NCBI RefSeq assembly: GCF_000470315.2
Contig: NZ_CBRF02000025.1
Span: 25,677-78,790 of the forward strand
DNA length: 53,114 bases
Reading direction: 5' to 3'
Origin: Psychromonas sp. SP041
Lineage (GTDB): Bacteria; Pseudomonadota; Gammaproteobacteria; Enterobacterales; Psychromonadaceae
Shown here: positions 51,872-53,114 of the stretch, piece after piece
Layout: each line of letters starts with the position of its first letter
How positions within the stretch are numbered: position 1 is the stretch's first letter
Made by a program: the position numbers and the translations under genes
Notes under the pieces: model-generated
What the model saw: the letters and a program-made list of their open reading frames with translations, nothing else
The model's database searches: none
Told to the model about the DNA's origin: nothing

Positions 51872-52004
51872 TGTAATTATTCCCATAAGTTTCAACTGCT
51901 TTAATACATTTATCTTATTATGCTTCAATCTCTACAATAACGATATCTGCATCTGTAGTAGATTAAGTCATGCCTCTCTATGAGATAAAATACTACCCTA
52001 GGGA

Positions 52005-52025
52005 AAGGTTGACAGATTCAACCTT
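52005..52025. terminator. Small stem-loop left of the tRNA-like array
   Basis: AAGGTTGA-CAGAT-TCAACCTT, perfect 8-bp stem with a 5-nt loop. No T-run; the role is unclear. Confidence 0.35.
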
Positions 52026-52076
52026 GAAGTGCATAACCACTAAGCAAAAAACACTCAATAAGTAGGTCTTTAAATA

Positions 52077-52164
52077 TATCCACTCTATTGAGCTTTAGCC
52101 ATTGATACACACGATCCTTTCACAGTAGGACAATCTATTGATCTACCAACAAAACTAAAGGGGA
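52077..52164 (-). pseudogene. tRNA-Asn-like unit 0 (most decayed)
   Basis: Recognisable by alignment with units 3 and 4 (TTGGTAGATCAA, GATTGTCCT, CGTGTGT) but with a broken acceptor stem, D-stem and T-stem. A remnant terminator with T6 (GAGTGTTTTTTGC on the minus strand) follows. Confidence 0.6.
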
Positions 52165-52213
52165 ATGTTTTTTTGTTAGTCTGTTAAACAGCTCCTGAAT
52201 TTTAGGCAAAAAA

Positions 52214-52242
52214 AATCCTGAACAATAATGTTCAGGATTTTT
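52214..52242 (-). terminator. Terminator after tRNA-like unit 1
   Basis: Perfect stem AATCCTGAACA / TGTTCAGGATT with a TTAT loop at its core and a T-run on the minus strand. The same hairpin recurs after unit 3. Confidence 0.75.
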
Positions 52243-52246
52243 AATG

Positions 52247-52334
52247 CGACGCCTCTTGCTGGGCTTGAATCAGCGACACACGCTATACATTGAAAACAGA
52301 CAGTTAGTTGCTCTACCGACTAAGTTAAAGAGAA
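52247..52334 (-). pseudogene. tRNA-Asn-like unit 1 (decayed)
   Basis: Same organisation as unit 4, but the CCA position reads TCG, the anticodon-region insert is changed and one base shorter, and the D-stem has a mismatch. The T-arm is still nearly intact. Confidence 0.65.
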
Positions 52335-52401
52335 ATTGTATTTTGGTCTTTTTGCAAAATTAAAGCAAAAAAATTAACTCAAACGAGTAGGCTTTTAAAT
52401 G

Positions 52402-52490
52402 TGGCTCTTCTTGCAGGGCTTAAACCAGCGACACACGCTATACCTTCAAAAGAGGACAGTCCGTCGATCTACCAACTGAGTTAAAGAGGA
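52402..52490 (-). pseudogene. tRNA-Asn-like unit 2 (partly decayed)
   Basis: 89 nt with CCA, but mismatches in the acceptor stem (3' side AAGAAGA against TCCTCTT) and the D-stem (ACTC against GATC). The T-stem also has a change (GCTGG to CCTGC). The anticodon-region insert is identical to units 3 and 4. It is followed by an ACTC-GTTT-GAGT hairpin and T7. Confidence 0.7.
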
Positions 52491-52537
52491 ATTGCTCTTT
52501 TTGCTAATGTATTAGGGAGAGCATAAATTTTAGGAAA

Positions 52538-52566
52538 AAAATCCTGAACAATAATGTTCAGGATTT
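52538..52566 (-). terminator. Terminator after tRNA-like unit 3
   Basis: Perfect stem AATCCTGAACA / TGTTCAGGATT followed by T7 on the minus strand, directly after unit 3. Confidence 0.75.
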
Positions 52567-52572
52567 TAAATG

Positions 52573-52661
52573 TGGCTCCTCTTGCTGGACTTAAACCAGC
52601 GACATACGCTATACCTTCAAAAGAGGACAGTCCGTTGCTCTACCAACTGAGCTAAAGAGGA
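52573..52661 (-). ncRNA. tRNA-Asn-derived RNA, unit 3 (intact arms, altered anticodon arm)
   Basis: 89-nt cloverleaf-like unit with encoded CCA. Acceptor TCCTCTT/AAGAGGA, D-stem GCTC/GAGC and T-stem GCTGG/CCAGC are all perfect. Its flanks match tRNA-Asn (TAGAGC-AACGGACTGT before, TGTC-GCTGG after), but where tRNA-Asn has GTTAATCCG it has an insert of about 20 nt (CCTCTTTTGAAGGTATAGCG). The arm can be drawn as an imperfect ~10-bp stem with loop CTTTTGA. Whether it is charged or used is unknown. Confidence 0.65.
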
Positions 52662-52709
52662 ATGGTTCTATTTGTTAGCCTGTTGAACAGTTTCTAAATT
52701 TTAAGCAAA

Positions 52710-52738
52710 AAAAAGCCTACTCATTGAGTAAGCTTTTG
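52710..52738 (-). terminator. Terminator after tRNA-like unit 4
   Basis: Minus strand AAGC-TACTC paired with GAGTA-GCTT followed by T8. Confidence 0.7.
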
Positions 52739-52742
52739 AATG

Positions 52743-52831
52743 TGGCTCCTCTTGCTGGGCTTGAACCAGCGACACACGCTATACCTTCAAAAGAGGACAG
52801 TCCGTTGCTCTACCAACTGAGTTAAAGAGGA
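52743..52831 (-). ncRNA. tRNA-Asn-derived RNA, unit 4 (altered anticodon arm)
   Basis: 89-nt unit nearly identical to unit 3, with CCA, perfect acceptor and T stems, and one D-stem mismatch (ACTC/GAGC). It has the same 20-nt insert in place of the Asn anticodon segment. The spacer on its 5' side matches the spacer before unit 3 up to 52900, where an insertion sequence begins. Confidence 0.65.
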
Positions 52832-52959
52832 ATGGTTCTATTTGTTAGTCTGTTGAACAGTTTCTAAATTTTAAGCAAAAAAAAGCCTACTCATTGAGTA
52901 TAATGCCGATCGGTTAAGGATCTAAGAAGAAAACTTGAACGATCTTGCAGATAGAACAT

Positions 52960-52996
52960 AATCCCCACTCTTATTTAAGGTTGGGGATTTTTTTGT
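52960..52996 (+). terminator. Terminator inside the IS left end
   Basis: AATCCCCA / TGGGGATT stem followed by TTTTTTT. It would stop transcripts entering the IS from the left before they reach the transposase. Confidence 0.8.
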
Positions 52997-53007
52997 TTAA
53001 TCAAGAA

Positions 53008-53114
53008 ATGGAATTGGTGTATGAATCATTTGAAAATAAAGATGCTTACGACAATGTATTAACAGCGATTGATTCTAAATGGATTGAAGAAGCATTATTT
53101 TGTACTCAAAAAGC
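53008..53114 (+). CDS. IS4-family transposase, N-terminal fragment (cut by window end)
   Basis: Thirty-five codons are visible, starting MELVYESFENKDAYDNVL and continuing AIDSKWIEEALFCTQK. The helix DSKWIEEAL followed by a Thr-x-Lys segment is the usual start of the IS4 N-terminal domain. The catalytic DDE part lies outside the window. The ribosome site is weak, as is common in transposases. Confidence 0.6.
   Translation, partial: MELVYESFENKDAYDNVLTAIDSKWIEEALFCTQK

Follow-up and report, generated by a model that had tools for sequence, protein, structure and literature searches.

Remodelled tRNA-Asn copies, most probably pseudogenes, form a lineage-specific array behind tandem tRNA-Asn genes in Psychromonas

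The rtT repeats that follow tyrT in E. coli are arranged in tandem downstream of a tRNA operon and carry tRNA 3'-end sequence. Clusters of tRNA pseudogenes in Photobacterium may be a parallel to the locus described here. According to the available part of PMC2965389, rtT is a by-product of tyrT. Non-canonical tRNA gene fragments resulting from integration or CRISPR-Cas activity are, in the accessible text of PMC9897764, archaeal. Bacillus cereus contains tRNA-Other, which is part of longer expressed RNAs and has a deletion phenotype (PMC3399842, available part), and YrlA has, beside D, T and acceptor arms resembling those of a tRNA, a stem made of its 5' and 3' ends by which Rsr is tethered (PMC8394870, available part).

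The window, i.e. the whole stretch of 53,114 nucleotides of Psychromonas sp. SP041 that was analysed (G000:C25:25677-78790, the end of contig C25), contains five related units at 52075-52831 on the minus strand. They resemble rtT in being tandem repeats with tRNA 3'-end sequence 3' of a tRNA operon, but here both halves are present, each unit being a nearly complete tRNA. No match to Rfam RtT was obtained in the window at the gathering threshold or in ten related loci at E ≤ 0.5. With the fragments of PMC9897764, as far as the available text describes them, the units share that they are tRNA-derived, low-scoring, extra to intact copies and miscalled by software (here as tRNA-Gly), whereas those fragments are archaeal and the units here form a tandem array with one shared remodelled segment. 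Like tRNA-Other in the accessible part of its description, they would be pseudo-tRNAs that do not work in translation. YrlA likewise joins D, T and acceptor arms of the tRNA type to a part foreign to tRNAs; going by the available text, it differs in the large stem that its own 5' and 3' ends form and that tethers Rsr. None of the 24 Psychromonas genomes gave a TROVE (Rsr) match, with the control search being positive in one of 14 named genomes. A YrlA match on locus L059 (33.2 bits, below the cut-off of 69) lay over tandem tRNA-Asn genes and was dismissed. The open-access literature yielded no title or abstract on such remodelled tRNA-Asn units. The structure is unusual, and it looks like a known category, namely tRNA pseudogenes in a tandem operon, and not like a new kind of RNA.

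The tandem of five minus-strand units of about 89 nt proposed in the first-pass annotation was confirmed. The 5' ends of the units are 170, 171, 156 and 170 nt apart from unit 4 down to unit 0. The proposed derivation from tRNA-Asn with a replaced anticodon segment was borne out by alignment to tRNA-Asn(GTT): TAATCC in the anticodon arm has given way to 19 nt (net +13), turning ACGGACTGTTAATCCGTGTG into ACGGACTGTCCTCTTTTGAAGGTATAGCGTGTG. The best-kept units start like tRNA-Asn with TCCTCTTTAGCTCAGTTGGTAGAGCAACGGACTGT, continue with CCTCTTTTGAAGGTATAGC where TAATCC stood and close with the tRNA-Asn T arm, acceptor strand and CCA. Unit 4 (52743-52831, minus strand, 89 nt including CCA) carries the 20-nt segment CCTCTTTTGAAGGTATAGCG at 52777-52796 (C25:78453-78472, minus strand). 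Unit 3 (52573-52661, minus strand; 20-nt segment at 52607-52626, C25:78283-78302, same strand) has retained all 16 acceptor, D and T pairs and CCA. Acceptor pairs (7/7), T pairs (5/5) and CCA are intact in both units as initially described, but unit 4 has one broken D-stem pair (G10A). The three remaining copies, on the same strand, are decayed: unit 2 (52402-52490; 20-nt segment at 52436-52455, C25:78112-78131, minus strand) with 4/16 body pairs broken, unit 1 (52247-52334, 88 nt) with the diverged insert CTGTTTTCAATGTATAGCG and without CCA, and, most strongly, unit 0 (52075-52164).

A model (R1) of 14 units, which included four window units, detected all five units of the window. Given that unit 0 was left out of the model and was still found with an E-value of 3.6e-13, the family is not a product of chance. 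The Rfam tRNA cut-off was reached by two of the five, namely, unit 3 with 47.6 bits and unit 4 with 38.0 bits. True tRNA-Asn genes of relatives scored 69.8 bits compared to 28.5-47.6 bits for the units listed. ARAGORN called unit 3 'tRNA-Gly(tcc)', which is an artefact of the anticodon-arm swap. A functional tRNA-Asn has the anticodon GTT in a 7-nt loop on a 5-bp stem; this arrangement is absent from the remodelled units, in which TAATCC is replaced.

Two repeated or mobile-looking sequences interrupt the array, one at 52901-53114 of the window and one at the end of contig C17 (L009:4318-4508). The former is a multicopy repeat. It cuts into the terminator upstream of unit 4, runs to the end of the contig and occurs at 12 other places in G000, six of which start at the first base of a contig. 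As for the latter, C17 has a set of four identical tRNA-Asn(GTT) genes, followed by a terminator and by a further remodelled unit, which is cut by the end of an IS3-like element. An ORF end in this element matched the integrase-core domain rve_2 with 20.9 bits, slightly short of the 22 bits that Pfam requires. Repeated DNA has therefore broken the array in this strain, and the interrupting DNA is probably mobile. An intact source gene persists in the same genome, in the form of the four copies on C17. While the five window units stand, the array does not end at 52900 as first described but continues on C17 beyond the repeated elements.

The locus is unbroken in G016, where an ECF sigma factor gene and a DUF3379 gene (identified by Pfam on the G000 copies) are followed by four tRNA-Asn genes, a terminator, three remodelled units and two decayed units. 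The three remodelled units are identical in sequence with a period of 173 bp, and their terminator-plus-spacer segments are identical or differ in one base. An ankyrin-repeat protein gene follows the array in both G016 and the window. From this locus we infer that C17 and C25 would carry one continuous array with an unassembled join.

The tRNA-Asn loci of 23 out of 24 Psychromonas genomes were compared, with G020 (51% complete, two weaker matches) being omitted. Lack of conservation outside the strain had been named as a sign of a mere pseudogene array; the family occurs in six of the 24 genomes (G000, G016, G015, G017, G003 and G023), with an insert that drifts about as the spacer does. Arrays are cut by contig ends in G001, G002, G004, G007 and G023, so that absence there is not proven. 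In a tree of the ECF gene from 19 genomes, the six carriers fell within one strongly supported clade of nine. This clade also includes G013 and G021, in which the chimeric unit is of another type, and G014, which lacks any. When 394 genomes of the order, a sample from a larger group, were searched for the pattern with at most two mismatches, the six carriers were returned along with one match among the 370 genomes outside the genus. This match (G302) was rejected as chance, as ARAGORN found no tRNA there and the surrounding sequence was not tRNA-like. Searches of plasmid and phage collections gave no match, and an exact 24-mer search of genome contigs returned Psychromonas sp. RZ5 only.

The units are very probably tRNA-Asn pseudogenes, in an array that is specific to one lineage and sits where the tandem tRNA-Asn operon has its 3' end. 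They repeat the last segment of the array, consisting of tRNA-Asn and terminator, which is clearest in G016, and they share one 13-nt-longer anticodon segment while being decayed to differing degrees. The suggested course of amplification and subsequent decay was upheld by intact units followed by decayed ones in G016 and by the repeated segment. Unequal recombination is favoured where identical tRNA genes stand in tandem and their spacers are similar. Such recombination between repeats is discussed for large duplications in the available part of an eLife article from 2020. Unequal recombination among the identical tRNA-Asn copies may have duplicated the terminal segment, and a single rearrangement would have put 19 nt in place of TAATCC, possibly taken from the acceptor/D region of another copy. 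The inactive rearranged copy would then have been amplified as a unit of 155-173 bp. Gene conversion from working copies, by which we infer the similarity of the arms to tRNA-Asn to be best explained, would keep renewing the shared arms, whereas the insert, the spacers and the older units would drift. Mostly situated beyond the array terminator, the copies would be expressed by read-through at most and would have no role as elongator tRNAs. The remodelled units look like wear from repeated DNA duplication.

Other chimeric units and partial copies were observed in the genus. In the terminal units of G006 (L060, reverse complement 1460-1770; two copies, 173 bp apart) and G010 (L059, reverse complement 1220-1345), the T arm, acceptor strand and CCA are those of tRNA-Asn, but they are joined to a different 5' part, which contains a hairpin (AGAAAAGGTT..AACCTTTTCT). 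In G021 and G013, tRNA-Asn copies carry an insertion of about 70 nt between the D arm and the intact anticodon arm (L056, reverse complement 1141-1290, and L057, reverse complement 1595-1743). The chimeric units of these four genomes all lie after the last normal tRNA-Asn and its terminator and would lend independent support to the view that array ends behave in this way in other lineages. Leader repeats, mostly of 74-79 nt, precede tRNA-Asn copies and are common in the genus (L009:3303-4105, L021:5309-6330, L022:7234-7310 and 11 further genomes). They consist of a near-exact 5' half of tRNA-Asn (acceptor strand and D arm), usually followed by ATAGAGACACTGTTAAT, and an AT-rich tail. An alignment of 18 leader sequences from 14 genomes (A2) folded into the D arm and a CUC/GAG closing helix, and alignment folding found no covariation in this 5' half.

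As to the source of the 19 nt, a duplicated acceptor/D-arm piece was considered. The score of the G000 insert against the 5' half of the leader was reached by 88 out of 20,000 shuffles and 426 out of 103,800 window 20-mers, and that against tRNA-Asn by 842 and 2,151, respectively. When the test was repeated with other targets, values of 0.0056 (G000), 0.0052 (G003 a) and 0.02-0.57 (other inserts) were obtained. Since several targets and variants were tried, the resemblance is a hint only and suggestive at most. An origin from the leader hairpin found no support (0.028-0.99). A helix of the internal TCCTCTT with the 3' acceptor strand was also rejected: it had 7/7 pairs in four of 14 units, but column 39 was unpaired in eight of 14, and the pairing was equalled by 30 out of 500 shuffles.

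The first-pass annotation suggested expressed RNAs, perhaps tRNA mimics or processing decoys. Transcribed by read-through or from unseen promoters, such RNAs would be recognised by RNase P and by CCA-handling or modifying enzymes and might titrate them. This is unlikely. It agrees with the intact elbow, acceptor and CCA in unit 3 and the three G016 copies and with the fact that several units are delimited by terminators. A terminator was ascribed to every unit; strong hairpins with T runs follow unit 4 (52711-52737, minus strand, 12-bp stem), unit 3 (52538-52567, minus strand, 13-bp stem) and unit 1 (52211-52242, minus strand, 14-bp stem, inverted repeat I1), but only a decayed remnant follows unit 2 (52360-52404, minus strand), which did not fold clearly better than shuffles (z -0.91). 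The hairpin after unit 3 is identical in sequence to that after the last true tRNA-Asn of G016. These individual terminators are explained if the last tRNA-plus-terminator segment was duplicated. No terminator is evident between units a and b of G003 or directly after unit c of G017. In G017, an insertion of about 50 bp with inverted ends lies in the terminator between the second and third units (L052, reverse complement, ~1590-1640).

A strong hairpin with a T run follows the last true tRNA-Asn in G000 and G016, and all remodelled units seen in G000, G016, G017, G003 and G023 lie downstream of this terminator; the C25 units of G000 were placed by analogy with G016 across the assembly gap, and the hairpin in G017, G003 and G023 was read from the sequence. 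G015 has two copies, one inside the array without the acceptor 5' strand and one without the T arm. A simple scan listed the array terminator of G000 and, in the window, only the terminator after unit 4. It listed none in L022 (G016), in our reading because the T run is absorbed into a long A-T stem. The best sigma-70-type match (TTGACA, 17, TATACT; 11/12) heads the array in both G000 and G016, the two genomes scanned, and weaker matches (9-10 of 12) are located within the array ahead of true tRNA-Asn copies; site counts exceeded those of shuffles only in L009 (C17 of G000). No promoter match was found ahead of the remodelled units in G016 or the C17 unit, nor on the unit strand at 51950-53114 of the window. 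With units mostly beyond the array terminator, without a promoter match in G000 and G016 and with stems that were not spared, expression as mimics or decoys was left unsupported.

The 32 paired sites had 29 distinct substitutions and the 27 unpaired sites had 17, in counts that pool units possibly exchanging sequence by gene conversion. Eighteen of the 29 stem substitutions break pairs compared to 19.5 expected at random, with as few in 32% of random trials. The changes are thus unfiltered by structure, as in pseudogenes, and speak against decoys. Four of the 29 come only from the lost acceptor strand of the G015 copy and are probably a single event; when they were removed by hand, 14 out of 25 broke pairs, which is near expectation. 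All 16 acceptor, D and T pairs and CCA are present in three of 14 distinct units (G000 unit 3, G016 and G017 c) and not in the other 11. Fully intact bodies are confined to three of the six carriers, which speaks against decoys. That such bodies with CCA exist at all, with G016 having three copies of one, counts against the pseudogene reading.

The insert, too, drifts like the spacer, which argues against decoys. Its 18-nt core was compared by hand count with the terminator-plus-spacer in ten pairs of G000 (segment from unit 3 to unit 2), G016, G023, G003 a and G017 a. The insert was less conserved in seven pairs (72-83% compared to 85-90%) and more in three, namely, G000-G016 (18/18 and 78/82), G003-G017 (16/18 and 66/80) and G017-G023 (16/18 and 67/80). 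These three pairs count against the pseudogene reading, as does the fact that G000, G016 and G015, the last of which is more distant, share one and the same 20-nt insert. Given that the best-matching spacers of G000 and G015 are alike at 61/65 and 58/65 positions, this identity is not remarkable for G000 and G015. The terminator segments of G016 and G015 aligned only at 50/67. Much of ACGGACTGTCCT and ATAGCGTGT is nearly invariant across units, a further point against that reading.

The proposed enlarged arm is predicted to form when unit 3 or the G016 unit is folded at minimum energy, which would suit a decoy; the fold energies were not much better than those of shuffles (z -1.59 and -0.89, respectively). 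Its maintenance, or that of a UUU 'anticodon', could not be upheld, as loops differ and changes are uncompensated. The loop is CUUUUGA in G000, G016 and G015, where formation of the 10-bp arm would bring U33 and UUU into position, and GUUUAUA, GUUUUAG or GUUUUGA in the other carrier species. Two inner pairs are broken in 5/13 and 8/14 units without compensating change; the inner stem is broken in G017, G023 and G003 b and kept in G003 a. Changes on both sides were seen in none of the ten pairs of the arm and in one of the 26 of the full structure (T stem, one sequence). Shuffled controls reached every measure in 220 to 476 of 500 trials. The full structure had a pairing percentage of 88.6 compared to 33-48 for slid versions, as expected for tRNA-derived DNA. 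The seven outer pairs (columns 27-29 with 54-56 and 32-35 with 50-53) are nearly invariant, which argues neither way. Overall, the comparison shows drift of the remodelled units across species rather than a maintained RNA. It is decidedly unlikely that read-through transcripts of the intact units (G016 and unit 3) are processed by RNase P and persist as tRNA-like RNAs with CCA ends but no usable anticodon, in a young tRNA-derived family surviving in some species and dying in others.

It is highly improbable that the units are attachment-site scars, i.e. tRNA 3' halves repeated by site-specific integration of integrative elements. Halves of this kind with CCA do recur, and integration-derived tRNA fragments are a known source of false calls (PMC9897764, available part), but most units have both halves and are separated from the next unit by just 38-133 bp. 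Moreover, there was no integrase among the eight ORFs matched to domains on one flank at 41-52 kb of the window (ankyrin-repeat protein, FecCD, periplasmic binding protein, ABC ATPase, ammonium transporter, UPRTase, permease and family B DNA polymerase), and the G016 flank has the same layout as judged from ORF coordinates. That the units are elongator tRNAs of altered, lysine-like identity, decoding with UUU from the enlarged arm, is barely credible despite the fitting loop of three carriers, as translating tRNAs have a 5-bp anticodon stem, ARAGORN's anticodon is TCC instead of UUU, the tRNA score is reduced, and the poor conservation of loop and inner stem speaks strongly against it.

The pseudogene array illustrates clearly how inactive copies may be shed from the 3' end of tandem tRNA genes. 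The chimeric copies at the array ends are not the same in all lineages, while a full-length tRNA-Asn identical to that of G016 is present in 16 of the 24 genomes. The array is also a practical trap, as tRNA counts are inflated when ARAGORN labels one window copy and three G016 copies tRNA-Gly(TCC). If an intact unit were expressed, it would offer a natural test of what the body of a tRNA does in the cell when the anticodon is missing.
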